Shown: one piece after another, positions 988 to 60,936 of the stretch
How the letters are laid out: each line of letters starts with the position of its first letter
Numbering within the stretch: position 1 is the first letter of the stretch
Assembly: GCA_918797485.1 (NCBI GenBank)
Contig: CAKKNE010000005.1
Location: forward strand, 4,464,001 to 4,528,000
Length of the DNA: 64,000 nt
Origin: Pelagomonas calceolata
Lineage: Eukaryota; Sar; Pelagophyceae; Pelagomonadales; Pelagomonadaceae
Reading direction: 5' to 3'
Made by a program: the position numbers and the translations under genes
The notes under the pieces: model-generated
Told to the model about the DNA's origin: nothing
Seen by the model: the letters and a program-made list of their open reading frames with translations, nothing else
The model's database searches: none

Positions 988-1737
988 ACTTGTTGCTGTT
1001 TGTTGCTGCTTCGTTCGCTCTTGTTTGCGGTGGCACCGGCTGCCCCTCGGCGCCGCGCGGGATACGCTGTCGTTTGGTACCTTCCCAGTGCTTCGGCAGT
1101 GGGGACTGCGGCTTTTACGCGCCTTCACGCTCGCTTGGCGTTATGAGAGCACCCCACTAGGCGTGGCCGCCTCTCCGGGCGGCTCGCGAGTCCTGCTACC
1201 CTCTTGAAGCGGTGGCGAGGGGTGCGGCGAGAGATGCGTCGTGCTTGCTAGTGTCTTACAGGCCGCTAGCCGGGCTCTCGATTCCACAGTTAAAATTAGC
1301 CACGTGGTGCGCGGCGCAGTGATATTTATGTTCAAATCCGGGCGTGGTCGGTGGTTCCTGACTTCACTCGCAAGCGCTCGTATCGAAGACGCAGCGAAAT
1401 CTGAGCCAGCGGCCGCGCATGAGGCATTTCCGAGGCTACTGACCTGGAATATGGCTCTCCAAGCACGCCCCGCGAAGCTCCGCCTATCGGCGCGCGCTCA
1501 TTTCGCTGCGCACAGCCCTCCTGTCGCGTTTGCGCTCTTCCTTGCTGGTTATGCTTCGTTTTCTCGCCTGGCCGCCCGCGGCCGACCCACACTTGGAGGG
1601 GACCCACACTTGGAGGGTGACGCCGTCGAGGCGCGACGATGGTCTGGCGAGGGTCAGCTTCGAGAGTTCCAGCACGCCATCGACGCGACGTCTCGGTACC
1701 CGCGCAGACTCACATCACCTCGCTCCTCTCCATCACC
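988..1737. other. Divergent intergenic region with repeats
   Basis: This 750-bp stretch separates two divergent genes and holds no convincing coding frame. It contains the promoter palindrome at 1247-1270, a CACGTG box near 1300, two direct copies of ACCCACACTTGGAGGG at about 1585-1617, and the dispersed 15-mer ACGCCATCGACGCGA at 1674-1688. The stretch from the 15-mer to CCCGCGCAG resembles the 3' end of intron 2 of the ABCC gene, so a 5'-UTR intron for the gene at 1738 is possible. Confidence 0.6.
1247..1270 (+). promoter_or_regulatory. Divergent-promoter palindrome, copy 1
   Basis: GCTAGTGTCTTAC followed by 4 nt and CGCTAGC. It lies between the minus-strand ATG at 987 and the plus-strand ATG at 1738 and matches the consensus perfectly. 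Confidence 0.8.
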
Positions 1738-2115
1738 ATGGCCCTCGTCGAACCCGAGCTCTTCATCAAGATATTCTGCGTCGTTATGGGTATGTACGGC
1801 CTCCAGATGCTCGCCGTGCCGGCGAAGATGGTCACGGACCACTTCGACGCGCCGGCGACGCCGCTCCTCCAGTTCTGGATCCGGGGCTCATCGTGCGCCT
1901 TCCTCACGATCGTCTACCTCGTCAAGTTCAAGCTCGCCACGGAGGACGCCGTCCCCGTCGCCCTGGCCATGAGCGTCGCGTGCGGCGCGCTCTACCCGTG
2001 GAACGCCAAGTTCGGCTACCTCTCGCCCGGCCTGCCGACGAAGTACCCGATGCACTACGTGCCCGAGGTCCTCATGTTGGCCTTATCGTGCCTCGGCATC
2101 GCGGCCATGATGTGA
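1738..2115 (+). CDS. Small multipass membrane protein, unknown
   Basis: A 125-residue protein starting at an ATG in good context (ATCACCATGG). An in-frame extension to 1639 lacks a better start. Hydrophobic stretches at about residues 8-25, 45-62, 70-88 and 105-125 suggest four membrane helices; an ALYPWNAKFGY motif lies between helices 3 and 4. I do not recognise the family. Its stop is 30 bp from the stop of the convergent gene at 2146, so the 3' ends must overlap. Confidence 0.7.
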   Translation: MALVEPELFIKIFCVVMGMYGLQMLAVPAKMVTDHFDAPATPLLQFWIRGSSCAFLTIVYLVKFKLATEDAVPVALAMSVACGALYPWNAKFGYLSPGLPTKYPMHYVPEVLMLALSCLGIAAMM

Positions 2116-2145
2116 GTGATCATCCCCTTCCCCACCACCTGTAAT

Positions 2146-2628
2146 TTACTTACTCATCGACGCGAGGACGGCTCTTTGCTCGGACGTGATCACGGCCTGG
2201 TCGATGACCGTCATGCCCGAGATCGGGTTGCCCCACTGGTCCTTTTCCCGCGTGTCCTTGACGCCTCCCGCGTTTTCCGCGATCTGCGCGACGAAGTTGC
2301 CGAAGAAGCCCTTGTCTTCCTTTTTCTTGGTCGCGGGCCGCGGCGACCCGCCAAATGCCAACCAGCACTCGTACGCCGCGTCCGCGCTCAGCGCCGGGCC
2401 CGCCGCATCGACGAGACCCGAGACGAACTGCTCCCGTCGCAAAAACTGCCTCGGCGCGCCGTCGACTAAAAACATCGATTCGAGGACCGCTGCGTCGCCG
2501 AGGCGCGCCGACAGGGCCTCGATGTCGGCTGCGCTCGCATGCAGCGTGACGCATCGGGATGGGAGGGCAGCTTGCGGTGCAAACGACAGCGCGCCGACGA
2601 CGCATAAGGCAGAGAGGAGTCGATTCAT
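2146..2628 (-). CDS. Probable plastid- or secretory-targeted protein, unknown
   Basis: A 160-residue protein with a hydrophobic leader (about residues 1-16) followed by S-F-A-P, the kind of Phe-containing cleavage motif used by heterokont plastid-targeting leaders. A charged, mostly helical body follows, with a KKKEDKGFFGNFVAQIAENAGG segment and a QWGNPISGMTVID segment near the C-terminus. The family is not recognised. Targeting is inferred from the leader only. It shares the promoter at 2629-2932 with the SMYD gene. Confidence 0.7.
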   Translation of the reverse strand: MNRLLSALCVVGALSFAPQAALPSRCVTLHASAADIEALSARLGDAAVLESMFLVDGAPRQFLRREQFVSGLVDAAGPALSADAAYECWLAFGGSPRPATKKKEDKGFFGNFVAQIAENAGGVKDTREKDQWGNPISGMTVIDQAVITSEQRAVLASMSK

Positions 2629-2789
2629 GCTGATGTCCAGCTTGTGCAGTCGTCAGTGAGATGGCAACGAGATGCACAACTGAGCCACAGGCGTAAGGAC
2701 AATATTGTAAAGAGTCTATGCACAGCGTACAGCTGACTACCGGCTGGCGGGGGCCGAGATACAGGCCGCTTTGTCCACGTGAGCTACGA

Positions 2790-2812
2790 GCTAGCGGCAG
2801 TAAGACACTAGC
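2790..2812 (-). promoter_or_regulatory. Divergent-promoter palindrome, copy 2
   Basis: On the minus strand GCTAGTGTCTTAC, 3 nt, CGCTAGC. It sits in the 304-bp gap between ATGs at 2628 and 2933, 161 and 120 bp away. A CACGTG box lies just upstream near 2777. I see nothing else in the gap. Confidence 0.85.
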
Positions 2813-2932
2813 AAAATCGTAGCAAGCAGCCGCGCGCCGTAGCTGAGCCATCTCGGCCACAAGCGCTTGTGCCAGAGCTTCTCGAAAGACCAGCGAACGC
2901 ACCCTTGCAATATCAAGACGAAACGACGACAA

Positions 2933-6284: not shown

Positions 6285-6445
6285 GGTGCCGCGGGGCAGC
6301 GGGGCAGCCGAGCAAAAGGCCGGCTGCCAGCTGCCTGCCAAGGAGCTCAATATTGATGCACGTGGCGGAATTAAAACGGTTGCCTGACTCGGAAGAGTGC
6401 GTTTGACGGGCGCGCCGGACCTTTGGTGGTCGACGGGTGTGGAAT

Positions 6446-6467
6446 GCTAGTGTCTTGCACCGCTAGC
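6446..6467 (+). promoter_or_regulatory. Divergent-promoter palindrome, copy 3
   Basis: GCTAGTGTCTTGC, 2-3 nt, CGCTAGC; one substitution from consensus. It lies in the 417-bp gap between ATGs at 6284 and 6702. The gap also has two CACGTG boxes (near 6360 and 6563) and a GCTGCCC/GGCAGCC pair near 6648. Confidence 0.8.
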
Positions 6468-6701
6468 TGTGGCTTAAGTGGTTCAGTTTTTGCCGCTGAA
6501 CGTCGCACCTGGGGTCCTTTACGCCCACTGTTTACTGGCTCGACAGGTTTCTGGCGCTGCCGACACGTGCAGCTCGCCCAGAGCGCTTGGTTGTTGCTGC
6601 ATTTACTCAGCTGGCAGGCTGCACTCGCAAGCGCGCGTGCAGCATAGCTGCCCGGCAGCCTTGCGCTCGCTGGCAGGCTATAAAACAAGCTATCAGACGC
6701 A

Positions 6702-8559: not shown

Positions 8560-8689
8560 GCTGCACTGCGCTGCACTGCTCGTTTATCGAGGAAATCGCT
8601 GCGGCGTCGTTACCGCAATCAATGTGCCTGCACTTTGGACCAATGACACCACTGGTGCGCTGCGGCACGCCTTTGGGGGCTCAAGCCGC

Positions 8690-8712
8690 GCTAGCGTCGT
8701 GTGAGACACTAG
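8690..8712 (-). promoter_or_regulatory. Divergent-promoter palindrome, copy 4
   Basis: On the minus strand CTAGTGTCTCAC, 3-4 nt, CGCTAGC; the outer arm starts one base short. It lies in the 314-bp gap between ATGs at 8559 and 8874, 130 and 161 bp away. A short GAGAGC-AA-GCTCTC hairpin lies about 16 bp before the ABCC start. Confidence 0.8.
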
Positions 8713-8873
8713 GAAACATCCCCGTGCGTGTTTTGCAGTGGCACACACGGCGTGCGCGGCGTGCTGAGACGCCAGCGCTGCGATTAAGACTCATTGTGTT
8801 CGTGCCTTGTTTTGCGCGTGCAAACTTAAGAGTTCAAACCCACTGAGAGCAAGCTCTCCTGCAGCCATACTCA

Positions 8874-20276: not shown

Positions 20277-21194
20277 CTAGCCGACCAGGAACGACGCGAC
20301 GTGGCGCGCGAGGTGCGGCTCGTCGACGAGGCCGTAGCGCGCCCCGCCGACGTCATTGCGCCTCGCGACGAGGCGCCCGAACAAGCCGCGTCGGCGCGGG
20401 GCGGGCCGCGGCGCGCACGGACCGATCACGCAGAGGCGGATGCGGAGCAGGAAGTAGGAGAAGAGGTAGCAGTCGAAGAGCGCGTTCATTGCAGGGTCTC
20501 CAAGCTTTCGCACGCGTTGCAGCGGCGTCGCGCAGGATGAAAAATCAGTCGGGCTCCTCCAACGTAATTTTCTCCAACTTCTATTTTGTGAAGGCACCCA
20601 GTCAAAGTCAGCACCGTGCGTCAGCAGCATGCGGGCCATGTCTACGAATCTTTGGCGCTCATCGAGATTATGGGCCCCATGATAATACTTTTGAGATTCA
20701 ACCGCGACCACAAGCGGTGACCAACCACTGTGGTCCGGCATGTCGACGGCAGCGCCCCTCTCTAATAACGTCCTGACGCAGTCAGCACAACACGTGGAGA
20801 GTCCACTGGAGACAGCCGCCAGAAGTGGCGTCGAGCCGTTGGTGCTCCGGTGGTTGAGATCGCTGTCCTCCAGCAGAAGGCGTCGGACGATGCGGCTGTG
20901 GCCCCATACAGAAGCTATGAAAAGCGGGGTCTGCCAGCGACCGTCGGCAATGCGAGGAGAGGCACCATGCGCCAAAAGAAGCTCCACGACCTCGAAGCGA
21001 TTATTCTCGCACGCGATGTAAAGTGGCGTCTTTGTAGCGTGCAGAGCTAGAGAGATCTCAATATTAGGGTCGAAGGATCTCCTGTCGTTAATCTGCGCAC
21101 CGCGATCGATGCACTCGCGCACAGTTTCGATGTCGCCACGCTGACAGGCTAAGCGCAGCTCCTCCGTCGAGAATTTCACCAGGACGGCGTCCAT
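20277..21194 (-). CDS. Ankyrin-repeat protein
   Basis: A 305-residue protein from the ATG at 21194; the open frame extends upstream only with a less likely start. About five ankyrin repeats are visible from residue 10 to 205, with TPLYIACENNRFEVVELLLAHGA and TPLFIASVWGHSRIVRRLLLE as the clearest. The C-terminal third has a hydrophobic helix (LFSYFLLRIRLCVIGP), a Pro/Arg-rich loop and a final LARHVASFLVG. Ankyrin proteins bind other proteins; no enzymatic domain is seen. Its stop is 27 bp from that of the hydrolase-TPR gene. Confidence 0.85.
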   Translation of the reverse strand: MDAVLVKFSTEELRLACQRGDIETVRECIDRGAQINDRRSFDPNIEISLALHATKTPLYIACENNRFEVVELLLAHGASPRIADGRWQTPLFIASVWGHSRIVRRLLLEDSDLNHRSTNGSTPLLAAVSSGLSTCCADCVRTLLERGAAVDMPDHSGWSPLVVAVESQKYYHGAHNLDERQRFVDMARMLLTHGADFDWVPSQNRSWRKLRWRSPTDFSSCATPLQRVRKLGDPAMNALFDCYLFSYFLLRIRLCVIGPCAPRPAPRRRGLFGRLVARRNDVGGARYGLVDEPHLARHVASFLVG

Positions 21195-21382
21195 CTCTAT
21201 GGCGCTGCGCTCGTGTACGCGCTGGGGCAGCTGCTGCAAGTCACCTTTTGTGCCACAGCGATCGCGTTGGTGCGGTTTTCTGCTGTTCACGCCTTCGCGG
21301 CGTATGATTGGTGCTCTCACAGCGTCCAACCGTCAAATTCGTGGGCGGTGCCGCTCTTTTAGCATCTCAAGACTCCGGCCGG

Positions 21383-21405
21383 GCTAGCGGTTGTGAGACA
21401 CTAGC
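21383..21405 (-). promoter_or_regulatory. Divergent-promoter palindrome, copy 5
   Basis: On the minus strand GCTAGTGTCTCAC, 4 nt, CGCTAGC-type arm. It lies in the 356-bp gap between ATGs at 21194 and 21551, 188 and 145 bp away. I see no other feature in the gap. Confidence 0.8.
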
Positions 21406-21550
21406 ATTTAAGGCTGGCTTCGTCCAGGTGCGGCTAAAAACGGCACACACGCGGTTCTGCGCACACACGCGTGCCGTATCGTTGCTCCCGACGCTGGCCC
21501 TGCGCCGAAAACGATCTATTTCGCACGGCTGCGGACGCTGACCAAGCTTG

Positions 21551-22700: not shown

Positions 22701-22802
22701 CACTTTTGTGTCATGGGGAAGACTGTGTGCACCAAAATTGGGTCGAAATGCAGAGACGGGCAAGGGGGGCAAAAAAATGGCAAAAGTGGCAAAAAGAAAA
22801 GA

Positions 22803-22916
22803 GAGCGCTACCCGGGATTCCAACGTGGTCACCCACCGTAGTACTAACCGGGCTCGATAGGGCTTAACTTCGATGAGCTGACGGGTATCGGTGCTCTCCC
22901 TATGATCTGAGCGCTC
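22803..22916 (-). rRNA. 5S ribosomal RNA, variant B
   Basis: The minus strand folds as a 5S rRNA of about 114 nt. Ends GAGCGCT/AGCGCTC pair as helix I, ATAGGG/CCCTAT as helix II, and CGAT/ATCG lies in helix III. The internal promoter words GAAGTTAAGC and GGTTAGTACTACGGTGGGTG are present, and the 3' half matches variant A. Downstream on the minus strand are T-runs (TCTTTTCTTTTT, later TTTTTTT), the Pol III terminator. The gene sits alone between protein genes rather than in an rDNA tandem. Confidence 0.93.
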
Positions 22917-23381
22917 GCACTGTCCCGGGAGTGAGGGCTCCTGAGGACGCGATGGAGGAGAGTTGGGAACTTTGCCTTATGAATTGTTTTTGCCCCTCCG
23001 CGCTGAGCGGCCTGCTGCGCGCTGCAACGCTCTCCGTAGGGCTGCCTCCCTTGGCCCGGGAGCCGCGGGTCTCGGCACGCGGGAAGCCAGCCGTCAATAC
23101 ACGGCGTTCGAGACGTCGCTTGGCCGTGGCAACGTTGCTGCCTGCCCGGGCAGCGTCGGCACGAGCAAGCTCGAAGCAACCAAGTGGGGCCGGCGCTTCA
23201 CCTACTCCGATCGCTGCCCATGACGCCGACCCGGTACCGCCTCGACGAAGGCTTCGAGTACGGGCACGCAAGGACCATGTCCCCGTAGCATCGACCCGTC
23301 CGGAGATGTTCCGCAGGGGAGGTGGAGTCCAAAATTCGCCAGGCATCCGACTACCCGGGCCGTGTTTCGCTAATTATGATT
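22917..23381. other. Region without a supported gene
   Basis: This stretch lies upstream of 5S variant B and downstream of the MGCQ gene. Open frames exist on both strands (for example 22900-23346 minus, which runs into the 5S gene), but none has a recognisable domain or a convincing start, and I do not call them. Confidence 0.4.
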
Positions 23382-24095: not shown

Positions 24096-24303
24096 GGCTC
24101 ACTGGGGCTGCCGCTGGGGCGCTTCCTGGTCAGGAGGCGTCCTCGCGCGTGGTCTAGGCTGCCAAATACGCGGAGTGACGAGCGCTGTCCAGGCGTAGAG
24201 TGTGCTATTGCCGCTTTGCGCGGGGCCGGGGGCGGACCTAGAGCATACCCGCACGATTGCATTCAGGCTTCGGGGGCGTCCAGGAGAAGTCGTCCGGCGC
24301 AAG

Positions 24304-24448
24304 AGTGCTGAGGACTAGCTAGCCCACGCCCGCGCGTCGCTCGAGTGCTGAGGACTAGCTAGCCCCTGCGTGGCGTTGACCGCGCAAGTGCTGAGGACTA
24401 GCTGGCCCGCCACACGCTTGACGAAAAAGTGCTGAGGACTAGCTAGCA
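24304..24448 (-). repeat. Four 20-bp direct repeats with unique spacers
   Basis: AGTGCTGAGGACTAGCTAGC occurs at 24304, 24344, 24387 (one mismatch) and 24429, at periods of 40, 43 and 42 bp. The spacers of 20-23 nt are unrelated to one another. Each repeat ends in the palindrome CTAGCTAG. The array lies between two minus-strand genes, upstream of the MGCQ gene, so it is a candidate regulatory array. It is not a CRISPR: only four units, no cas genes, eukaryotic context. Confidence 0.8.
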
Positions 24449-24498
24449 CGGCTGAGAAACTTCTTGAAAAACTTTTAACAAAATTCCCTTCACGGCTC

Positions 24499-25342: not shown

Positions 25343-25620
25343 GGTGAGTGCTCGGTGAGGTCGCAGTATGCTCAGTGTAATGGTGTTGGGCTCGTGGTCC
25401 GCGCCTGAATGGGCAGCCCGCGGCCGCGAGCAGGGCGACGTCCAGGGCCTCCTGTTCGGCAGCAAAGCGATTCCTTATTCGCCTCGCGCGCGCGGCATCT
25501 GCGTCTGTAAGCTCTCACAGCGCGCCTGTCCCAGGTATACCCTGCATTGCAATTCACCGCTTGCGTCGTATTGTTGGTAAAAGTAAGGCGGCATGCAAAA
25601 AAAAAAGCAAAAAAGAAAGA

Positions 25621-25734
25621 GATCACTACCCGGGATTCCAACGTGGTCACCCACCGTAGTACTAACCGGGCTCGATGAGGCTTAACTGCAGTGAGCTGAC
25701 GGGAACTGGTGCTCTCCTCATGATCTGAGCGATC
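25621..25734 (-). rRNA. 5S ribosomal RNA, variant A
   Basis: Same length and 3' half as variant B at 22803. Ends GATCGCT/AGTGATC pair as helix I, ATGAGG/CCTCAT as helix II, CAGT/ACTG in helix III. Differences from variant B fall as compensating pairs. The minus strand runs into TCTTTCTTTTTTGCTTTTTTTTTT, a strong Pol III terminator. The 5' end is fixed only to within a few bases. Confidence 0.94.
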
Positions 25735-25930
25735 GCGATCATCCCCGGCCGATGGCTGGCTCGAGAGATGGCTAAATTGACAGGTGCGCAAACTTGTATT
25801 GAACCGCTTTTGTTTATCGTGCGGGTTTGCATGCAAATCAGTCGACGCCTACGCGCGCCTCCGCACGATGGCGTAGTCCCGGCACGCGCCCGCCAAGGAA
25901 AACTAGCTAGCCACTGGCATAAATAAAAAC

Positions 25931-31189: not shown

Positions 31190-31225
31190 CCCGTTCCTAA
31201 TTTATCTTGACGCAAAGAGCAGTAA

Positions 31226-31249
31226 CCTAGCGTCCTGTAAGACACTAGG
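31226..31249 (-). promoter_or_regulatory. Promoter palindrome, copy 6 (tandem genes)
   Basis: On the minus strand CCTAGTGTCTTAC, 5 nt, ACGCTAGG-type arm. It lies in the 143-bp gap between two plus-strand genes, 84 bp before the ATG at 31333. It is the only clear copy not between divergent genes. Confidence 0.8.
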
Positions 31250-31332
31250 AAATCCCAGCAAGCCAGCTTGGCAAAGCCGCTGCTGCGCCTGCCTCGCAGG
31301 CCGAAGGCTGGACGCACCGCACAGCTCACAAA

Positions 31333-33472: not shown

Positions 33473-33477
33473 GTGAT

Positions 33478-33541
33478 CCGGCGCTTCGGCTTTGTTTGCT
33501 TTGTGTTGGGAGATGTCAGCCGGCGCTTCGGCTTTGTTTTG
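33478..33541 (-). repeat. Direct duplication upstream of the WW-CCCH-RS start
   Basis: CCGGCGCTTCGGCTTTGTTT occurs at about 33478 and again about 42 bp later, directly upstream of the minus-strand ATG at 33472. It would fall in the 5' UTR. Confidence 0.7.
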
Positions 33542-33739
33542 TAAACGAGCGTGCTCGGCCGGCGCGCTCGCGACGCCGATTGGGAGAGCTCGACGGGGAG
33601 TCCAGGCGTTTCGCGGCCACGCGTCGGCTGCGCTGGAAGGACGGCAACAGACCCAAACAGTGTGTACCAGAGACACTGTGGAGGAGCCCTTTGCTCGCGT
33701 CGCGCTGGGAAACACGCTTTTTGGTCGGCGCACAGGCTT

Positions 33740-33763
33740 GCTAGTGTGTTACCGCCCGCTAGC
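33740..33763 (+). promoter_or_regulatory. Divergent-promoter palindrome, copy 7
   Basis: GCTAGTGTGTTAC, 4 nt, CGCTAGC; one substitution in the core. It lies in the 497-bp gap between ATGs at 33472 and 33970. Apart from the duplication near 33478 nothing else is seen in the gap. Confidence 0.8.
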
Positions 33764-33969
33764 TGCCAGCTGTGTGACGCCCGCACTCGGCCCATCGCTG
33801 CGAAGGATAGCTGAAATTCTTGCATCACGTCTTTAGTCCAGTACTGCGAGCGTTGGACCAGCTTTTTCCGCGTGCGTCTTTGTGGGAGAGCTAAGCCAGG
33901 CAGGGAGGCTGCAGCTGCCAGGCGCCAAGGCGCAGCGCAGTGCATCGGAATAACTCACAAAGAGCAGTC

Positions 33970-37306: not shown

Positions 37307-38194
37307 CTAAATAAACGATACGGCGACGCTCGGCAGCCGGGGAAGCATGCGCCGCTTCCGCCCGCCGAGCTTGGGCTTCGGCGGCGGCGATAGTGTAAGC
37401 GAGAGCGCCTGGCCGTCGATCGACAGTCGCAAGGGCGGGCCGACGTCGAGCTCCGACCGTGCCGTCCAATACAAACCGAGCGTCGTCACCGCCGCCGTCA
37501 GCGCGTCGTCTCCAATGAGACAACGCGCCGCGAAGCCCTCTTCAACAGAAGTGGTCGCGAGAACGCACCGGTAACCATCAATGACCTCCGCGGCGGCGAG
37601 CGCGGTTTCGTCCTCGACCTCTACCACTAACGTGTCGCCGGGCGTCGCCGCCGCGTACGCGACCTGCCCCTCGGCGAGGCCCAGTGCGTTCGCGACCACC
37701 TCCACATTCTCTGGTTTAGATGCCGCCTCGGACGCGAAGCCGGCGAGGCTCAGGATGCCTTTATCAACTTCCGCGTCGACGGCGAGCTCGGCGCAGCGCA
37801 GCGAGAAGGCGCCGCCGTCGCGGTTCCCATCGAGCGCCTCGGCCGCCGCCCGGCAACTCCCGACGTTGGCCGCGGAGCCCAGGGCCCACGCCTCGCCCTT
37901 CTCGTACCGTCGTAATCCAAACGTCGCGCAGTCCTTGCCCGTCGCGAAGGGTAGGCAGCAGATGATTTCTTGAGCGTCATCAATGTCGTTCAGGAGCGCC
38001 TCGATGGCCGCGCCGACGGGCCACATCGCCTGCGCCGTTTGTCGCGCGCCCTCGGTCTCGGTGAGGAGGAGCACGGTCGTGTCTCTGGCTTTTGCTTGCC
38101 ACTGCAGCTTCGCGGGGGCATATGCGGCGTCCAGGGCGCTTGTGCTTGCAACCAATAATGCTGCGAGCATCGCTGCTGCATGCTGGGTGTTCAT
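37307..38194 (-). CDS. Secreted protein, unknown
   Basis: A 295-residue protein with a clear signal peptide (about 1-21). The body has several Cys (CCLPF, CATF, SCRAA, RCAE, RCVL, RCLIG) that could form disulfides and a basic C-terminal KPKLGGRKRRMLPRL segment. No domain is recognised. It converges with the QueF gene (26 bp between stops) and diverges from the FBA-domain gene. Confidence 0.7.
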   Translation of the reverse strand: MNTQHAAAMLAALLVASTSALDAAYAPAKLQWQAKARDTTVLLLTETEGARQTAQAMWPVGAAIEALLNDIDDAQEIICCLPFATGKDCATFGLRRYEKGEAWALGSAANVGSCRAAAEALDGNRDGGAFSLRCAELAVDAEVDKGILSLAGFASEAASKPENVEVVANALGLAEGQVAYAAATPGDTLVVEVEDETALAAAEVIDGYRCVLATTSVEEGFAARCLIGDDALTAAVTTLGLYWTARSELDVGPPLRLSIDGQALSLTLSPPPKPKLGGRKRRMLPRLPSVAVSFI

Positions 38195-38277
38195 GGCCTA
38201 GGCTGAACAGCAAGCGAGCAGCGCTTACAGTGTTTAAGGCAAGCACGCGCCGTAAAATTGCGCCTGTGAAATCCACT

Positions 38278-38301
38278 GCTAGTGTCTTACATGACGCTAG
38301 C
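38278..38301 (+). promoter_or_regulatory. Divergent-promoter palindrome, copy 8
   Basis: GCTAGTGTCTTAC, 4 nt, CGCTAGC, exact to consensus. It lies 83 and 127 bp from the ATGs at 38194 and 38429. Confidence 0.85.
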
Positions 38302-38428
38302 TAACTCGAACGTGCTAGCACTGGTTTGACACGCCCGCGTGATAACCGGCACTAAGCGATTGAGACGAGTCTCCATACGAACGGCACACGCGAAAGCGTG
38401 ACTGACAAATAGTGAAACTGCTCCATTG

Positions 38429-40166: not shown

Positions 40167-40637
40167 GGTCTAACGCTGGCGCGTCGCGCGCGGGCAGCCC
40201 TCGGTCGCGTGGGCCCGTCTGCGTGAGGCCTCGACGGCGCCCGGCTGCGCTCACTCGCCCGTTTGTGAGCGTTGCGAGCCCTTTTGCCACTGCCGAGAGC
40301 GGGCGCTGTTTGATGAGCCCGCCCTTTGGCCGAGGGCACCCAAAAGCGAACCAGCATGCATGTCCAGCAGGAGGTCTAGAGAAGGATAGCCCGAGGTCTA
40401 CTTGGTTCGGGTTTTTGCCAGCGCGTACGGTTCTGCCTAGAAAGAAGTATGCTGTTATGAAAAATGTGGCATGCGCTCGCCGCCGATGAATCGGCGACGC
40501 GCGGTGTCCCCCAGGGGCGCCGCCCACTAGTCCTAGCACCGTAACAGAAATACCCCGCGGTAGTCGGAGGCTCAGAGCAAAGGAACTTAAAAATCCCGAA
40601 AAAGAAAGCCCGGACTCGGATGGATACGAAGACCAGA
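40167..40637. other. Intergenic region between two minus-strand genes
   Basis: A 471-bp stretch between the stop of the Cys-rich multipass gene and the start of the basic protein gene. Apart from the GGGCAGCCC box near 40189 it shows no recognisable gene, RNA or repeat. Confidence 0.4.
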
Positions 40638-42389
40638 TCAGGACAACATCGCGCCGTCGGACAGCTCCAGCCCCGGCGAGTCGTCGGGCGCGACGCCGAC
40701 GCGCAGGCCCGACGCGTCGCGCGCAGCGGCCGCGTCACCTTCCTGATCTGTGAGCACGAGGATAGCTAGGCACAGGTCGTTGATGATCGAGTCGAGCGCG
40801 AAGAAAATCCAAGGGTGCGCGAACTCGACGAGGGGGTTGATGTAGCACACCAGCGTCGAGACAACGGCGACGACCGTTGCGACGAGCACGCGCAGCATCT
40901 GCGCGCGCATCGCCTTGTCGGCGGCACCGAGCCGGTCGGCGTGCCGAAGGGGCCGCAGGAACGCGTAGCAAAGGTATAGAGAGACTGCTACGTGCACGCA
41001 TCCGACCACTGCAATGACCGACGCCGATGCATAAATCGCATCACCGTACGCGTTTCCTTGATGGTCGCTTCTCAGGAATCTCTTGGCGAGGTCGTACTGG
41101 GCCCAGTACATGACTGGCATGAATACCGCCAAGGGCACGAGCTGGCACCACACAGCATATCGCAGGACCTTCAAGGTCCGCGGCGACGGCCCGCCCGGCA
41201 CGCCGCCCAAGAGGTGGACGCGGCAGACCAGCACGAGCTCGAGCACGATGTTAGTCAGGATGCCCATAGATATGCCGAGGATGTACGTGGCGTAGCTGTG
41301 GGCGGCGCCCTCGGGCGTCTCCTCGTCGCGGTAAATGAGTCCCCAGTGTCTCGAGAACGATCCCTGGTCACCCGCGCACCAGCCGCGGAAGCCGCTCATC
41401 CACTCCCACGCGCCGCCGACGATGGCCGCCACCGTCGGGTTCGGATTTTCGCAATCGCAGTCGTAGGCGCGCGTCGTCTGCACGTTGTGGTGCTCGCAGC
41501 GCCACGTCGTGAATCCCAGGAAGGCGGCGAGATTCGCGAATAGCTGGATCACGAAATATGCCACGAGAGCCTTTAGATAGGCGCGGAACGGCGTCGTCGA
41601 AGCCGCCTCTTCGCTCCGGCGGAAATCCCGTCGGATTAAGAGCGACGCCGCGACGCCAAACGCCGAGGCGGCGACCGCGAGTAGATACAGCGCGTAGAGG
41701 ATCGCAAAGTCTTCGTCCTGCGCCCACCAACTCACCAGATCTTGCGGCGGGCCCGCGAGACCCACCACGAAGTCGCGGCGCCACCGGCAGCCGCGAACGT
41801 CGTCGCAGGCCCACCGGCCACCCCCTTGCGTGTCCTCGTAGGCGCGCGAATCGCATGCGCAACTACCATTCGTGGCGCGCGATTCGCAGCGCCCAGCCGC
41901 ACAGGTCGCAGCTTCGACGGCGAACGTGTCCCCTTCGCAATTCGCGCACGCGTCGTCCTCCTCGCAGAACCCCACATGATGAAGTGTCGCGTTATGCGGT
42001 CCGTAACCGTCCCCCCACCAACCCTTGTCGGCGTACGACTCGTCGTAGGGGATGAGGAGGCTCGTCTTCTCGGATCTTGTCTGGCAGCAGGGGGGAAATG
42101 AAGCGTCGCTTTGCCAGCACGCATCCCACCTCTCTTCGCACCACTCCGACCATTCTCTGTAGACGCCGCCTCCGGGCCGGGCAGCGTTCACGCTGTATGC
42201 CCACACGACCCAGCAGCCCGTCCCGGCGTTCGCGTCTGCGGGCTCGGCCACGCGCTCCGCGTACACCGGGAGCAAAACCAAAATGGCGATGACAGAGCAA
42301 CACATTGATGTGAGCCATTTGTGAGCCAAGAGGCGCTCCTCGATTTGACCTATTCGGTCGGAGCTGCTGCCCTCCTTGGCGGCAGCCAT
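40638..42389 (-). CDS. Multipass membrane protein with Cys-rich extracellular domain
   Basis: A 583-residue protein. After a cytosolic N-terminus a first helix lies at about 28-44. Residues 55-215 are Cys-rich (about 16 Cys) with EGF-like CANCEGDTF and CAAGRCESRATNGSCACD stretches. Then six or seven helices follow between 225 and 560, with a second Cys-bearing loop (WRCEHHNV, DCDCENPNP) near 310-330. The layout resembles a receptor or channel-like protein but no family motif is recognised. Confidence 0.75.
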   Translation of the reverse strand: MAAAKEGSSSDRIGQIEERLLAHKWLTSMCCSVIAILVLLPVYAERVAEPADANAGTGCWVVWAYSVNAARPGGGVYREWSEWCEERWDACWQSDASFPPCCQTRSEKTSLLIPYDESYADKGWWGDGYGPHNATLHHVGFCEEDDACANCEGDTFAVEAATCAAGRCESRATNGSCACDSRAYEDTQGGGRWACDDVRGCRWRRDFVVGLAGPPQDLVSWWAQDEDFAILYALYLLAVAASAFGVAASLLIRRDFRRSEEAASTTPFRAYLKALVAYFVIQLFANLAAFLGFTTWRCEHHNVQTTRAYDCDCENPNPTVAAIVGGAWEWMSGFRGWCAGDQGSFSRHWGLIYRDEETPEGAAHSYATYILGISMGILTNIVLELVLVCRVHLLGGVPGGPSPRTLKVLRYAVWCQLVPLAVFMPVMYWAQYDLAKRFLRSDHQGNAYGDAIYASASVIAVVGCVHVAVSLYLCYAFLRPLRHADRLGAADKAMRAQMLRVLVATVVAVVSTLVCYINPLVEFAHPWIFFALDSIINDLCLAILVLTDQEGDAAAARDASGLRVGVAPDDSPGLELSDGAMLS

Positions 42390-42523
42390 GCTGGCCCTGT
42401 CTCAAATGCTGCCAATTTTGCGCGAATGGTTCTATGCCTTATTTTTTCGAAATGCCGGCTGCCCTTCGCGTCGTCGAGCAGGCATTGAGCCGTTAAACTA
42501 CCTTCGCACGCGCGCTACAGCGC

Positions 42524-42546
42524 TTGCTAGTGTCTTACTGCCGCTA
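42524..42546 (+). promoter_or_regulatory. Divergent-promoter palindrome, copy 9
   Basis: GCTAGTGTCTTAC, 3 nt, CGCTAGC. It is 134 and 171 bp from the ATGs at 42389 and 42718. A GGCTGCCC box at about 42458 serves the minus-strand gene. Nothing else is seen in the 328-bp gap. Confidence 0.85.
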
Positions 42547-42717
42547 GCTAGCTGTCGCGGCGCGGCGCGCGACTGGAGGCCTAGGATTTGACAACCTGTC
42601 ACAGAGGCTCGCAGCGGTCGTGGCGGTACCTCTGCTGCAAGCTGTTCGACGCGTGCGCTTCCCTGCGTGTGCAAAGAGCCACAATCACTGCTTGCATCAT
42701 AGCAGATATTCATAGCA

Positions 42718-48700: not shown

Positions 48701-49045
48701 GAGCCGATACCTTCGCTGGTCGGTCGGCGGCTGGTCGATGGCGTCGGCATCGGCGAGGATCGTCGTGACAGCGTGCGCGCTCGACGGCCTCGCCGCCAGC
48801 GCTGCCGCTGCGGCAGCCGCTCTGAACGCCAGCCGTCGCGGCACGGCTGTCGCGGGCGCATCGATGCGTGTCGCGTGCAGCCGCGTATCGATGCGTGTGG
48901 CATGTTGTGCAGCAAAACGTCTCGCAGGCGTGCTGTGCAGCGTGGTGCGCAGCCGCTCGCCACGTATAGCGTGCAACGGTGGCCCACGCGGCGCGTGGAG
49001 CGACGCCACGCACGCTGCACACAGACACAGGAGGAGGCTCTGCAT
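45752..49045 (-). CDS. M16 insulinase-type metallopeptidase with plastid, possibly thylakoid, leader
   Basis: A 1097-residue protein. The inverted zinc motif HFCEH lies near residue 157 (GVAHFCEHMLFLG) with the third ligand Glu in the AIESEDSKN segment about 75 residues on. Four M16 half-domains are expected and the length fits insulin-degrading enzyme plus about 100 leader residues. The leader is layered: a signal peptide (1-16), an Arg/Thr/Ala-rich transit-like stretch (to about 68), then PRRLAFRAAAAAAALAARPSSAHA, where RR, the Ala core and AHA resemble a twin-arginine thylakoid signal. It should degrade short peptides in a closed chamber; a plastid location is inferred. Confidence 0.9.
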   Translation of the reverse strand: MQSLLLCLCAACVASLHAPRGPPLHAIRGERLRTTLHSTPARRFAAQHATRIDTRLHATRIDAPATAVPRRLAFRAAAAAAALAARPSSAHAVTTILADADAIDQPPTDQRRYRLVALSNGLRALLVSDETAETAAAALDVHVGYACDPADRPGVAHFCEHMLFLGNKQYPREGAFAEYVQRRGGSSNAYTAAEDTCYHFDVDATDFEGALDRFSAFFEAPTFSPSGVERELEAIESEDSKNKLSDGFRLLQLDRSVRGEKTYKKFGTGNRATLLQSDEATPARYAALRRVLVDFHETYYTADRMALVILAREPLNDLQRLAEDKFGRLPRGSGPRNPAVAPTALVPPTNGLRPALLVAPVGAARRLALSWRVPYTGDTDAARRAEIRAKAGSIIASVLGDEGAGSLLSWARAEGYASGISASASPDGSTGLRLDLAYELTSKGLNFWPDLVAATVGAVARLRENGVPRYRVEELDQLAELSWRYSEPGKADDLARGLVTNVQEVGWDAAPEDQGRVLALFRRRGAGAGSTVDAQLDATRALLETGLVLENLCLTVVAREFLRKDSYWPLLTKRERWYGTAYETYAFDGASIRQLQNLKAPPRGGVTTPRPNPYLPRDLRLRAPPPEPRPPLAPLAAEDPAAPQPLVVGSGWTASYSTDREFGRPRGAAFFNARVGAIGESPESYILALLWRLACLDNLRERLWPARTAGLQYALDVGPRGVSLSFSGYSDGLAALARDVSQSAAKFVPDEASTARLADVIRRDLQDKSKPYVAAGFAATRALTRDGAFADQELVKALDTVFADGATGAAVRVKAFARDHLWAGGRPAFARGGDILVEGNFLEAEARALAAAVAGALPLRPGGPNYPTPRGLALPKAPVVLRIGAEEIGTEERNSAAELLLAVGSGPRAVALASVLSALLKPLFFDALRTKEQLGYVVQLGQRALPGAARPVALVLLVQGEKPPTVLTRRLRKFVTTEAAAAIRNLDEKTLRGIASSLADQKLEPDRRLYDRAGRHWEELRRTRDSTIEGAALALNWNRRYQTAAALNALTLSDVRDLWADVVSGGSFAVEVSNAPIDGDETVARSAEEVRAVLKPS

Positions 49046-49172
49046 GATTGAGCAGCCGAAGATCGATGCAAATGCTAGCAGGGCTCGTGGCCGATATTAT
49101 GCAGCTACCACCAGCTTTGCATGATCCATGGGCTGGTCTGTGAGGCAAGAGTCGCGTTCACACACGCTTATG

Positions 49173-49195
49173 GCTAGTGTCTTACAGACGCTATC
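49173..49195 (+). promoter_or_regulatory. Divergent-promoter palindrome, copy 10
   Basis: GCTAGTGTCTTAC, 3 nt, ACGCTATC; the right arm has one substitution. It is 127 and 160 bp from the ATGs at 49045 and 49356. I see nothing else in the 310-bp gap. Confidence 0.8.
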
Positions 49196-49355
49196 CAGCG
49201 TCGTCGACACATCGATTTCGAAAATTTTGGCGCACCTAGGACATAATTTGAGGTGGCGAGCTGGCTAAAGCACGTCCCTAAGCAGCCAAAGCACCAGAGG
49301 CCACCGCGCGTCTAGAACCGCGCTCTCCAAGCACGCATAGGCGACAAGCAAAACA

Positions 49356-50591
49356 ATGCCCCTCACGCTGCGCGTCCGCAGCCCACAGGGCATGTGGCGC
49401 CTCACAGTCCCGGACGCCACAACCACAATTCAAGCAGTAAAAACCCAGATCGAGCGCGAGAAGCAGGTCGCCGTCGACACGCAAAAGCTCACGAGCGATC
49501 CGCAAGGTACCCAGGAGCTCGACGACGGCTCGCGCCTCGACGCCGCGGGCCTCGGCGCGAACGGGTCTATTATCTATCTGTCCGAAAAGGAGATTGTCGA
49601 GCCACCGAGAGCGCCGACGCCTCCGCCGCCCGCGCCGCCGCCGCCAAATCCGCTCGCGGCGGCGGGCCGCAACGTCCTGGCCGGCAACGACAATGGCATG
49701 AGCGCCGAGGACCAGGCGGCCATCGCCGCGGCTTTAGCGGAGGACGACGCGCCGGCGTCGCCTGAAGTGAGACGCCCGGACGCGACGCAGAGCCCCGAAG
49801 CATTGGTGGGGCCGCCGTCGAGCGTCGGCGGGCTGCTGGAAGGGCTGATGAACGCGCCCGGCGGCGCCGCGGCCCTCGCGCACGCATTTCAAGCGCGCCA
49901 GAACGCCCAGCGGGCCGCAAGGGACGACATCTACGATAGCGACGACGAGGACCGCGACGTCGCGCGGCGGCTCCAGGACGACTACGACGAGGAGGAGGAC
50001 GACGACGATGAAGCTCTGGCGCGGCGCTTGCAAGACGGCGACGAAGAGGGCGACGCGCGCCTCGCGCGGCGCCTCGCGGGCCAGCGCGGCAGTTCGGTCA
50101 ACGACGGCGACGCGGTCCTCGCGGCCTTTTTGGGCGGCGGCGGGCCGCCTCCATTAGAACGGCGCCTGTCGACGGGCGAGGACGACCCGGCTTTGCAACG
50201 CGCGCTGCTCCAGTCGACGCGGCCCCAGCAATCGGCCTTCGCGGCGGGCGTCGACGCGCAGCTCGAGCGCGCGCTCGCGGCGTCGCGCGCCGAGGCCGGC
50301 CTCGCGGCGACGGAGCGCTGGGACGCGCCCGGGCCGGCGTCGCCGGGCGGCGCCGACGACGACGACGCCGCGCTGCAGGCGGCGCTGCTCGAGAGCGCGC
50401 CGCCCCAGCAGTCCGAGGAGGAGCGCCAGATCGCCGAGGCTATCCGGCTGTCGGCGCTCGAGGCCGCGCCCGAGGAGGTCCTGATGACGGACGCCGCGGC
50501 GACGGGGGCCCGGCGGCTGAACCGGCGCCGCGGCAGCAGCGACCCCGACGAGCGTATGACGAGCGGCTCGGGTTCGCGCAAGACGGATTAA
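49356..50591 (+). CDS. Ubiquitin-like domain protein with UIM-type motifs
   Basis: A 411-residue protein. Residues 1-77 form a ubiquitin-like fold of the UBX/NPL4 style (LRVRSPQGMWRLTVPDATTTIQAVKTQI and a DDGSRLDAAGLGANGSIIYL end). A Pro linker and an acidic middle with repeated RRLQD units follow. Near residues 275-375 four UIM-like helices appear: DDPALQRALLQS, VDAQLERALAAS, DDDAALQAALLES and EEERQIAEAIRLS. A protein with an N-terminal Ubl and several UIMs would bridge ubiquitinated cargo to the proteasome or Cdc48/p97. The exact orthologue is not clear. Confidence 0.8.
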   Translation: MPLTLRVRSPQGMWRLTVPDATTTIQAVKTQIEREKQVAVDTQKLTSDPQGTQELDDGSRLDAAGLGANGSIIYLSEKEIVEPPRAPTPPPPAPPPPNPLAAAGRNVLAGNDNGMSAEDQAAIAAALAEDDAPASPEVRRPDATQSPEALVGPPSSVGGLLEGLMNAPGGAAALAHAFQARQNAQRAARDDIYDSDDEDRDVARRLQDDYDEEEDDDDEALARRLQDGDEEGDARLARRLAGQRGSSVNDGDAVLAAFLGGGGPPPLERRLSTGEDDPALQRALLQSTRPQQSAFAAGVDAQLERALAASRAEAGLAATERWDAPGPASPGGADDDDAALQAALLESAPPQQSEEERQIAEAIRLSALEAAPEEVLMTDAAATGARRLNRRRGSSDPDERMTSGSGSRKTD

Positions 50592-50605: not shown

Positions 50606-51793
50606 TTACACAAACACCTCGCGGCCCTCCTCGCCGCGGCGCACGCCCTTCGGAGGGAGCGGTCCCCCGCGCAGATAAGGAACCTTGGCCGTCCAGTGCT
50701 CCTTCTTCTTGGCGAGCCAGTGCGTCGCCGAGTCGAAGGGCGGCACCGCGGTCGTGTTTCGTTCGTATACAACCGAGCCGTTTCGTATACAACCGAGCCC
50801 CGCGCGCTGCATCTGGCCGGGCGACCCGTCCCGGCACGCCTGCCAGTGGTCCACACGCCTTTGGTCGGCGTCCGCGCGCTCGCAGGCCGCGATATCTTTT
50901 AAACGGCCCTTGCCGATGTGCGGGCCCGCTCTATGGACGACCTTCACCGCCCAGGGCGTCGGGCACTCTCCGTGCTTCCAGAGGTGCGACACGACGAGGG
51001 GCGGGTGTTTGGGGGGACGCCCTAACCCACCGGTCCGGATCCAGACGTGCTCGAGGCACGCGTCCCAGGTGCAGTCCGACGGCCTGACCAAGCGTGTTCC
51101 ATTTAACACGGCCGATCGGTCCGCGTTCTGCTTGTAGAAGCAGGCCGCCAAGGCCCCCGGCACGACCTGCATCTTGTCCTGGTCCTTCGTCCGCCAAATT
51201 AAATGGCGCGAGTCCTTGAGCGTCCCGTCTAAGACGCAGCGCGGGCGCCACTTCGATACATCAATCTTGTAGTCCCATCGCATGATGAACACATACGCAT
51301 AATTCACGCCATGTTCATGGGCGTAGTCCCTCACGAGAGCAATGGCTCTATCTCTATTCCTGACTTGCGCAAACGGTAAACCGTCATCAACGTCCTCCAC
51401 ACTAACTTTCATCCGCGGCCCGTACCACTCCCGTAAGGTCTCGGTGGCATTGTACGTCGCGTTCGTGTTCGAGCAGGGCCGCGTCGCCGCGAAGACGTCG
51501 ACGCCGTAGCCGCTCCGGCCCAATGCCACAAACCACTTCTCGTGGTCGTCGGCGATGCGCCTTTGCGTCTTCCATGCTAACGCGCAGCCGCAGGTCCCGC
51601 GTACGTGCTGCTGGCCCGTGTTGCGGAAGGCCTCGCCCCTCAGCACGACGGCGATTGTTTTGTTGAGTGTATTGTTGCGCAGCCGAATTTGGGGCGGCGC
51701 GCAGGGGTCGGCTTTGATGGTGCGGAGGACGAGGAGGCTGCCCAGGAATTTGTAGGCTGCCATCATTGGTCCGTATCGTCGCCTCGTCATCAT
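50606..51793 (-). CDS. Type II membrane, glycosyltransferase-like protein
   Basis: A 395-residue protein from ATG 51793; the longer frame to 51838 starts with GTG. A short cytosolic RRR segment and a signal-anchor helix (about 10-25) place the rest in the Golgi or ER lumen. Six N-glycosylation sites (NNT, NKT, NAT twice, NGT, NGS, NTT region) support this. VVLRGEAFR opens the domain and a YVFIMRWDYKID segment near 180 looks like a DxD-type sugar-nucleotide site. Cys residues are spaced as in stramenopile glycosyltransferase-like families. The assignment is by layout, not by a firm motif. Confidence 0.65.
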   Translation of the reverse strand: MMTRRRYGPMMAAYKFLGSLLVLRTIKADPCAPPQIRLRNNTLNKTIAVVLRGEAFRNTGQQHVRGTCGCALAWKTQRRIADDHEKWFVALGRSGYGVDVFAATRPCSNTNATYNATETLREWYGPRMKVSVEDVDDGLPFAQVRNRDRAIALVRDYAHEHGVNYAYVFIMRWDYKIDVSKWRPRCVLDGTLKDSRHLIWRTKDQDKMQVVPGALAACFYKQNADRSAVLNGTRLVRPSDCTWDACLEHVWIRTGGLGRPPKHPPLVVSHLWKHGECPTPWAVKVVHRAGPHIGKGRLKDIAACERADADQRRVDHWQACRDGSPGQMQRAGLGCIRNGSVVYERNTTAVPPFDSATHWLAKKKEHWTAKVPYLRGGPLPPKGVRRGEEGREVFV

Positions 51794-51883
51794 CCTTGTG
51801 TGGGCAGCATCATCGATCAATATTAGGTCGATCTGCACGCAAACAAACTGCCGTGACGCCGTCCGCCAAAAAAAGGGCTGCTT

Positions 51884-51906
51884 GCTTAGTGTGTTACTGA
51901 CCTAGC
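51884..51906 (+). promoter_or_regulatory. Divergent-promoter palindrome, copy 11
   Basis: GCTTAGTGTGTTAC, 2 nt, ACCTAGC; diverged but recognisable. It lies between ATGs at 51793 and 52225 in a 431-bp gap. The plus-strand part of the gap is open in frame with the downstream gene. Confidence 0.65.
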
Positions 51907-52224
51907 TATTATTATTGCGCGCCGCCTTAAAAGTTGCCATATCTCCCCGTTCACTGGCTTGTTTTCAGCGAGAGAAGCTCTGTGTGAAGCCCCTTGACAC
52001 ATCGCTGCTTGGCGGCAGAAGAAACTGCGGCCACGGAACCAGCAGCCCCAAAACACACCACCCTCTCTGCAGCCGCGGAGGGAGTTGCAGCCGCCGTAGA
52101 CGTACAGCAGGCCGCGGAGAAACCGAAGAAAAGCAAGCCGCGGAGGAGTCGCAGGGGTGGGAAGAAAAGGGATACCTTCAAGAACCAGCTAAGAAAAGCA
52201 CTCTTGCTCTACGACACCGTAGCC

Positions 52225-55086: not shown

Positions 55087-55170
55087 CGGAGAGATACGCG
55101 GTTGAAATTTGGCAGCCGCAGCCACTACTATTGGCTTCCTCGAGCTGTGCTCTTGATCGATCTGGTGAAG

Positions 55171-55194
55171 GCTAGTATGTCAATGAACGCTAGC
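55171..55194 (+). promoter_or_regulatory. Divergent-promoter palindrome, copy 12
   Basis: GCTAGTATGTCAA, 4 nt, CGCTAGC: arms intact, core diverged at four positions. It lies 84 and 248 bp from the ATGs at 55086 and 55443; the 356-bp gap holds nothing else I recognise. Confidence 0.65.
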
Positions 55195-55442
55195 CCTACG
55201 TCGAGCCCAAAGCGTAAACGGCCGTATCGCAGGCACTGACGGCGAGCGAGCGCTTGCAAAAGACCCTGCGTGAAGCCTCCGAACTGCCTGTGCGCTGACG
55301 TATAGTTGCGAGGGACAAATTGCTAGCTGCCTGCAGGCAGTGCCTGCCCCTTTTTTGCCACAAACAGCGAGCATACGTCGAGCGCGAGGGAGCAGAGATC
55401 GCGTGGAGAAGCCACAGCACCCAGCGAAGCCACAGCAAAACA

Positions 55443-56273: not shown

Positions 56274-56340
56274 TGTTGTGTTTAGACTTATTAAGTGTGT
56301 GGAGATGGTAAATGCGGAGAACGCGCCACGGGTGAGAAAA

Positions 56341-56865: not shown

Positions 56866-56948
56866 CTTCGTGACCAGTGGGACAGCGTTTCGCGACCAGT
56901 GGGGCAGCGTTTCGCTAGCTCGCGCTGCCACTTTTTTTTCTCGATCTT

Positions 56949-56971
56949 GCTAGCGGCAGTAAGGCACTAGG
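56949..56971 (-). promoter_or_regulatory. Divergent-promoter palindrome, copy 13
   Basis: On the minus strand CCTAGTGCCTTAC, 3 nt, CGCTAGC; one core substitution. It is 84 and 141 bp from the ATGs at 56865 and 57113. Confidence 0.8.
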
Positions 56972-57112
56972 AAGCCTCCTGAGCAATTTGCAGCGCTCTT
57001 TGCTGCCTTCCGGTGCTGATACGCTTCGATTGCTCATAAGAAGCGCATCACGCACAATGAAAGCCAGCTCAACTCAGTAGGGGCTGCCCAGTTCCTACAA
57101 CAAGGGCAGATC

Positions 57113-59443: not shown

Positions 59444-59459
59444 TATCTATTTCACCAGC

Positions 59460-59474
59460 ACGCCATCGCCGCGA
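59460..59474 (+). repeat. Dispersed 15-mer downstream of a stop codon
   Basis: Exact ACGCCATCGCCGCGA, 17 bp after the stop of the RING gene, in the 116-bp convergent gap. Confidence 0.7.
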
Positions 59475-59559
59475 TCAATCTGGACAGCAAACACCAGAAA
59501 ACCTGCGCACAACAACGGTTGCGAAGGCGTCCGCAGTTCAAGGTAGGTATGAACTTCAC

Positions 59560-60672
59560 TTATGTCTTGCGAGGGATCTCGATGGCGTTGCCCGACGCCG
59601 CGCGGTAGACGCGGTCCGCGACGCCGGCGATGAGCGCCGACGACGCGCGCTCCTCCGAGAGGTCGGCGATGAACACGTTCGCCGCGCCCGGGACGCCCTC
59701 GGCCCATCTTAATGTATCGAAGAGCGCGTTCGCCGCGACTTTGGCGTCGCCCGCGGCCGAGAGGTCGCGGTAGGCGCGCGCGGCTTTTTCTAGAGTCTTC
59801 AACCTCCCACCAAAATCGACCACCACGCAGTTCGCGAGGTACGAGTCGCTCTTCGCGTCGTCCGCTGCTGCATCCGCGACGACAGTACACAACGCGGCGG
59901 GCAGGCGCGGCGCGTAGTGCGTCAGGAGCTGGCCCGGGCTGCCCGAGGCGTCGGGTTTGGATTCGGACGCGTAGGTCTCCGCGGTGTTCAGGCGCGCCCC
60001 CACTTGCGAGCAGATCTCCTCTAACGAGGCCCGCGGCAGCGCGCCTCGCCGATACAGCGTCAGGTGGCATGTCGTACCTTCCGTCCTCAGCCCGACGACC
60101 GTGCTCTCAATACCGTGCTCGCACTGCGCACTCCCGGAAGCACCGCCGTCGAGAATGGAGATGTCCTCGCCGCCCAGATCGTCCAGCACGTGCGCCGCCG
60201 TCGTGGGACTCACGTGCCCGAACTTGTTGGCGGACGGCGCCGCCACAGGCACGCCGGCCGCGTCAATGAGTCGTCTCGCCAACTCATGCGACGGGCAGCG
60301 CACGCCCACCGTTGAGGTGCCCGCGGAGAGGCAGTCCGGTAAATGTGATCGTGCGGGGCACACTAATGTCAATGGCCCGGGCCAGAACGCCTCTGTTAAT
60401 GCATCAAAAGCCTTCCGGCACGGCTCATCTAAATCAACGAGCGCCGGCGCGTCCTCGGGCTTCGCGACGTGCACGATCAGCGGATCCGAGAGCGGCCTTT
60501 CCTTGACCTCGAAGACGCGTCTTACGGCTCTTTCGTCGAGCGCGCTCGCGCCGAGGCCGTAGACCGTCTCCGTGGGAAACGCGCAGAGGCCGCCGCTCCG
60601 GAGCACGCCGCCGGCGCGCTCAATACCGTCGGGCGTCGGCGGCAGCACGCGCGCGACCCGCTTCGTCGTCAT
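59560..60672 (-). CDS. SUA5: Threonylcarbamoyl-AMP synthase, Sua5 type
   Basis: A 370-residue protein from ATG 60672; the frame to 60714 starts with GTG. The YrdC domain fills about 20-205: TETVYGLGASAL, VKERPLSDPLIVHV with the KxR motif, and VAAPSANKFGHVSPT with the SxN motif. A linker (about 235-250, SPGQLLTHYAP) and the smaller SUA5 domain (about 255-360) follow, which separates it from the single-domain YrdC. The enzyme makes threonylcarbamoyl-AMP from Thr, bicarbonate and ATP, the first step of t6A37 in ANN-decoding tRNAs. Confidence 0.93.
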   Translation of the reverse strand: MTTKRVARVLPPTPDGIERAGGVLRSGGLCAFPTETVYGLGASALDERAVRRVFEVKERPLSDPLIVHVAKPEDAPALVDLDEPCRKAFDALTEAFWPGPLTLVCPARSHLPDCLSAGTSTVGVRCPSHELARRLIDAAGVPVAAPSANKFGHVSPTTAAHVLDDLGGEDISILDGGASGSAQCEHGIESTVVGLRTEGTTCHLTLYRRGALPRASLEEICSQVGARLNTAETYASESKPDASGSPGQLLTHYAPRLPAALCTVVADAAADDAKSDSYLANCVVVDFGGRLKTLEKAARAYRDLSAAGDAKVAANALFDTLRWAEGVPGAANVFIADLSEERASSALIAGVADRVYRAASGNAIEIPRKT

Positions 60673-60912
60673 CGCTCCGGCGCGTGGTATGAGCCGGAGG
60701 AGCGCTATTATCACGAGGGCGCTCTTGTGTGGCGCAATCGTGGCTCTCTGCTGCTCTGCAGCGGTGTGAAGCGCTTGCTCCTTGCTCCAGGCTCCTCCGC
60801 GGCAGCGGTTCTGGCGTCGCGCAGAAGTTATCGTTCCGTAAGCAATGAATCGCTCGCACTTGTGTGATCACAGGCAATGCACAGCACGCTTCAGCTTCGC
60901 CGCAGTCTGTTT

Positions 60913-60936
60913 GCTAGTGTCTTACGCGACGCTAGC
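60913..60936 (+). promoter_or_regulatory. Divergent-promoter palindrome, copy 14
   Basis: GCTAGTGTCTTAC, 4 nt, CGCTAGC, exact to consensus. It is 240 and 229 bp from the ATGs at 60672 and 61166 in a 493-bp gap with no other feature that I recognise. Confidence 0.85.

Follow-up and report, generated by a model that had tools for sequence, protein, structure and literature searches.

Known promoter sites and repeated elements

Yeast general regulatory factors displace nucleosomes (PMC6602560), and Reb1 sites are enriched at divergent promoters (PMC7618759). The element described here, a near-palindrome repeated in the genome of the pelagophyte Pelagomonas calceolata, resembles the yeast Reb1, Abf1, Rap1 and Cbf1 sites in that a single strong site, with poly(dA:dT) alongside, is shared by divergent units. 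The yeast factor sites lie in the promoter nucleosome-free region, some 100-150 bp upstream of the start of transcription, and for the palindrome such a region is predicted. Its sequence, however, is unrelated to the yeast sites, which it far exceeds in length and constraint (about 34 bits); it also differs from them in being near-palindromic, in standing before roughly half of the sampled genes, and in that its protein is putative.

In metazoans, the strong motifs of NRF1, GABPA and ZNF143/Ronin are found in many housekeeping and head-to-head promoters, with NRF1, GABPA and ZNF143 motifs serving a subset of CpG-island promoters. We know of no sequence resemblance between these motifs and the palindrome, and the metazoan bidirectional-promoter motifs belong to a lineage unrelated to its host. 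A comparison from within the same algal group is provided by pelagophyte introner elements and MITEs, which are likewise short and repeated in many copies. Introner elements, however, are about 200 bp long and lie in genes as introns, whereas the palindrome measures 22-24 bp and is intergenic only; Pelagomonas introns peak near 210 bp (PMC9481584). A search of the accessible literature, with subscription journals mostly outside it, found no earlier description of the palindrome, which is weak evidence of novelty.

Genome and sampled sequence

Pelagomonas is a very abundant ocean alga. The window, a 64-kb stretch at C5:4464001-4528000, comes from a P. calceolata genome of 32,445,274 bases in 8 contigs. 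For strain RCC100, 32.4 Mb at 63% GC have been described, comprising six nuclear contigs, a plastid and a mitochondrion, with 16,667 genes averaging 0.45 introns (PMC9481584). Gap statistics were taken from six blocks (264 kb, 156 predicted genes), whereas genome-wide figures are pattern counts. Genes were called with a codon model trained on the sampled sequence, and the motif was not used. The copy at 49173 and four others were initially placed in introns, an artefact of genes merged by the caller that was corrected by a motif-blind rule.

A seventh block, on C2, consists of one giant gene with no palindrome and was excluded from the gap statistics. Its reading frame, almost uninterrupted over 40 kb (C2:1500001-1540000, L013-L016), is predicted to encode a giant surface protein; the part that was scanned contains REJ, GPS and laminin-G domains.

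Anatomy and number of copies

The palindrome has the consensus TT-GCTAGTGTCTTAC-N2-4-CGCTAGC-T, worth about 34 bits, and in 52 copies its anatomy can be written as (TT)G-CTAGTGTSTTAC-N2-4-CGCTAGC-(T). Its outer parts are two inverted GCTAGYG half-sites and TCTTAC forms an asymmetric core, with a total length of 22-24 nt over which both strands read almost alike. Some positions are invariant and variation is limited to others, while the spacer varies in length; the spacer before CGCTAGC had originally been given as N3-5, but proved to be N2-4. Such variation of 1-2 nt would be unusual for a rigid dimer. Conservation drops sharply to background 2-3 bases beyond the edges. The total information is 33.8 bits, against the 14.1 bits needed for specifying about 3,800 sites, and exceeds what one ordinary factor site needs. 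Scores in promoter gaps are bimodal, with either a strong palindrome or nothing above chance, and few intermediates.

All 14 copies of the original prediction are present in the window (Table 1). Most of their starts stand as given, but two were off by 1-2 nt and have been moved to 42526 and 51885. Twelve of the 14 agree with the consensus at 18 or more of its 20 positions, the copies at 55171 (16) and 51885 (15) being weaker. The independent codon-model caller returns exactly 17 divergent gaps in the window with 13 of them occupied, the very figures first proposed, and bears out that no window copy lies inside coding sequence; the remaining copy (31226) is in a tandem gap.

Table 1. Promoter palindromes and other features of the window (window positions; scores are matches to the 20 consensus positions)
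Feature	Position	Strand	Setting	Remarks
Promoter palindrome, N4	1247..1270	+	divergent gap 988-1737	20/20
Promoter palindrome, N3	2790..2812	-	divergent gap 2476-2947	20/20
Promoter palindrome, N2	6446..6467	+	divergent gap 6285-6701	19/20
Promoter palindrome, N4	8690..8713	-	divergent gap 8560-8873	18/20
Promoter palindrome, N3	21383..21405	-	divergent gap 20490-21550	19/20
5S rRNA gene	22800-22918	-	among protein-coding genes	Rfam
5S rRNA gene	25618-25736	-	among protein-coding genes	Rfam
Promoter palindrome, N4	31226..31249	-	tandem gap 31190-31332	18/20; sole window copy not between head-to-head genes
Promoter palindrome, N4	33740..33763	+	divergent gap 33473-33969	19/20
Promoter palindrome, N4	38278..38301	+	divergent gap 38171-38428	20/20
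Second element GTTACGGTGCTAGGACTAGTGGGCGG	40520-40545	-		also at C1:1004897, C4:3501519, C4:3516452, L075:300 and 2051
Promoter palindrome, N3	42526..42548	+	divergent gap 42306-42717	20/20; first placed at 42524, which included two flank bases
Promoter palindrome, N3	49173..49195	+	divergent gap 48802-49391 (caller) or 49046-49391 (longest ORF)	19/20
Weak promoter palindrome, N2	51885..51906	+	divergent gap 51767-52224	15/20
Weak promoter palindrome, N4	55171..55194	+	divergent gap 55087-55442	16/20
Promoter palindrome, N3	56949..56971	-	divergent gap 56866-57112	18/20
Promoter palindrome, N4	60913..60936	+	divergent gap 60673-61445	20/20

Over the whole genome, 1,322 exact matches to the pattern were counted (652 forward, 670 reverse), compared to none for the reversed-pattern control. 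With up to 3 mismatches the counts are 2,357 for N4, 980 for N3 and 455 for N2 (controls 2, 3 and 3), or ~3,800 in total against 8 for the reversed-pattern controls. Exact copies with a spacer of 5-34 nt number only 54 in the whole genome, most of them N5, and full sites account for three quarters (1,322 of 1,741) of all exact left halves. In 304 kb, 53 hits were found where an order-3 Markov control predicts about 0.3 at the same scores.

Distribution among intergenic gaps

In the 264-kb sample a palindrome is present in 35 of the 55 divergent gaps and in 17 of the 42 tandem ones, but in just one of the 53 convergent gaps, and none lies in coding sequence. When only gaps of at least 150 bp are considered, the figures are 35/55, 16/37 and 1/8, respectively. 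Over the full set of gaps, comparison of the three types shows enrichment in promoter-bearing gaps (Fisher P=4e-12 against convergent gaps, which are nearly empty). The palindrome does mark divergent promoters, as originally proposed, but not exclusively; since tandem gaps are also occupied and convergent gaps are not, with a single exception, it is a general promoter element rather than an element of divergent gaps. It stands in front of roughly half of the sampled genes, and this large gene share, together with its near-absence from convergent gaps and its absence from coding sequence, is what is expected of a strong general regulatory factor site. The palindrome is missing from about 36% of the divergent gaps and about 60% of the tandem ones, so it is not required by all genes.

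The tandem per-gene rate of 0.40 predicts that 65% of divergent gaps would be occupied if either gene could supply the site, and 64% are observed, which again argues for a general promoter element common to head-to-head genes. No sampled gap contains two palindromes, although 14.8 two-copy divergent gaps are expected by Poisson from the empty class (P=3e-8); hence one copy is shared by the head-to-head genes. Within divergent gaps the relative position of the palindrome has a median of 0.50 (IQR 0.42-0.59), and its distance to either ATG is typically 145-260 nt and rarely below 85 nt. In tandem gaps its orientation is balanced, with 9 copies in the same orientation as the gene and 8 opposite.

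Outward signals on both sides

Among 101 motif-centred sequences, poly-T and poly-A runs (TTTTT, AAAAA) cluster within about 25 nt of both palindrome edges in both data sets. As a proxy for fixed spacing to transcription starts, words and windows were chosen in the block set and then checked in separately fetched loci. Replicated in these independent loci were the onset of CGCCG about 160-200 nt outward of the palindrome (P=4e-9), GGCTGC at 110-150 nt (P=0.003), CTCTC at 120-160 nt (P=0.005), and an outward fall in T content from about 0.20 to 0.14. In contrast, GAAAC, AACAC and GCTGC, also words from the first set, were not replicated there. CACTG also peaks at 120-160 nt in both sets, although this word was chosen on the pooled data. 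EM was used to seek one fixed initiator motif, which was rejected, as only a broad GCWGC hump with poor replication emerged. The start-distance proxies (GGCTGC, CGCCG onset and T fall) span 110-200 nt from the palindrome and consist of composition and short words; from them, it is reasonable to infer that transcription may start 110-160 nt outward on both sides.

Orthologous sites and searches in other genomes

The palindrome was also scanned for in 257 billion bases of prokaryote genomes. It turned up in marine bins with mis-binned algal contigs: L074, L075 and L083-L087, from bins labelled Spirochaeta and proteobacterium, belong to Pelagomonas or a relative and represent contamination. DNA identity to the P. 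calceolata genome is 84-90% for L075, 93% for L077 and 78-91% for further contigs of the same bin, levels that point to a relative or to a diverged strain as the source of L075 and L077. In L085 and L086, also contigs of the relative, the palindrome again lies between divergent genes. The match in L073 is due to chance, the contig being bacterial (MurB), and that in L078 looks like chance too, as expected when scanning so many bases. A viral origin was rejected, since neither of two palindrome patterns matched any of 2.9 million viral contigs.

At all four orthologous positions examined, the palindrome is present in both genomes. The single change within it at L075:4290 is one spacer base, and at L077:5580 only the last base differs. 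At L075:2198 the P. calceolata copy is degraded, with an extra base and a changed arm. In the case of L075:5352, the palindrome occupies the same place in opposite orientations, while the surrounding spacer is unalignable.

Long-spacer variants

Palindromes with a long spacer, of the forms GTCTTAC-CTGTAAG-TACAGG, GTCTTAC-CTGTAC-AGG or close to these, were found at nine loci with unrelated flanks, and at a tenth that is a segmental duplicate of one of the nine. Each is a normal palindrome with an inserted reverse-complement copy of its own core. These copies, with the inverted duplicate of their own core, stand at L033-L042, nearly all of which are unlinked. Such an insertion is as would be expected of template switching between the inverted arms, and template switching could also flip the core, as at L075:5352. 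Flipping of this kind would fit the random orientation of the palindrome.

A second repeated element

With up to 3 mismatches allowed, a second repeated element, GTTACGGTGCTAGGACTAGTGGGCGG, is counted 366 times in the genome (control 0). Its four clear copies whose neighbours on both sides are annotated are all in tandem gaps, on the strand of the genes and about 70-125 nt past the upstream stop codon, and three of the four lie 50-130 nt ahead of a promoter palindrome. The element may signal the 3' end or a boundary of genes in tandem. A longer repeat of 120-160 nt includes some of its copies, and at window positions 24295-24449 there are four tandem copies of GTGCTGAGGACTAGCTAGCCC, about 41 nt apart, that resemble the element.

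Interpretation of the palindrome

The palindrome is probably a general, orientation-independent promoter site for one putative sequence-specific factor or complex. An abundant factor would bind the two inverted GCTAGYG half-sites and the asymmetric TCTTAC core of a single palindrome placed midway in a shared intergenic promoter, adjoining poly(dA:dT) tracts. Like Reb1 or Abf1, it would hold the shared region nucleosome-free and would help to set starts about 110-160 nt away on each side, with one open region serving both head-to-head genes or, in a tandem pair, just the downstream gene. The balanced orientations in tandem gaps and the reversal at one orthologous site suggest that the palindrome acts either way round. 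The protein, the nucleosome exclusion, the true starts and any effect on expression are what we infer from sequence. A dimer-like or shared promoter site, one of the options originally raised, is well supported by the single central copy per gap, the two orientations and the replicated two-sided outward signals. The other option, the core of a bidirectional promoter, would have the machinery assemble on the palindrome with starts outward both ways, as on a symmetric TATA/initiator. Its central position in divergent gaps, its near-palindromic form and its two orientations would suit such a core, but the start- or 5'-leader-like signals lie beyond the range of a core element and an ATG is rarely closer than 85 nt. 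With predicted starts 110-160 nt away, an upstream factor site is the likelier of the two, and we consider a core improbable.

The excess information content, two tandemly duplicated copies and the recurrence of identical long-spacer variants at loci that are unlinked and whose flanks are unrelated might instead reflect a short sequence, amplified or mobile, whose insertions into open promoter DNA are tolerated. This is very unlikely, however, given that some positions never vary and others do, with a spacer of variable length, that no sampled gap has two copies, that all four orthologous sites examined keep the palindrome, including two where the DNA has diverged or cannot be aligned, and that 22-24 nt is shorter than any autonomous element. 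A transposable element or MITE was rejected, since conservation stops at 22-24 nt with no longer unit bearing terminal inverted repeats and a target-site duplication, and the flanks of identical long-spacer variants are unrelated save for one duplicated region; an introner element, a GT-AG intron within a gene, is excluded by the size and intergenic placement of the palindrome. Equally doubtful is a site for replication origins or chromosome organisation, whose position in promoter gaps would be incidental and whose effect on transcription would be only indirect. Yeast Abf1, first known as an origin-binding factor, provides a precedent, and a density of one intergenic copy in 6-8 kb would be suitable for origins or boundaries, but the palindrome is nearly absent from convergent gaps and is linked on either side with outward signals of a promoter-like kind. 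A role in RNA, as a hairpin terminator or processing signal, is scarcely credible: the inverted arms could pair, but terminators belong at gene ends, and a terminator or 3'-end hairpin is ruled out because only one of 53 convergent gaps has a palindrome. A link to RNA genes was also rejected: Rfam finds only two 5S rRNA genes in 264 kb, neither at a palindrome.

A further reading, which we hold to be possible although rather unlikely, is that most pelagophyte promoters are organised by one very long, near-palindromic composite site, recognised by at least two DNA-binding modules and prone to flipping in place via template switching between its inverted arms. The site would then be lineage-specific, made of two half-sites and an asymmetric core, and the long-spacer copies with both core orientations would be half-flipped intermediates.

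As a general promoter site, one strong sequence before about half of the sampled genes offers a direct handle on its factor, by pull-down with one oligonucleotide, and would allow start-site prediction and the design of promoters for genetic tools. In a genome where divergent pairs dominate, the palindrome would offer an independent origin of the general-regulatory-factor strategy, far more sequence-constrained than the known cases.
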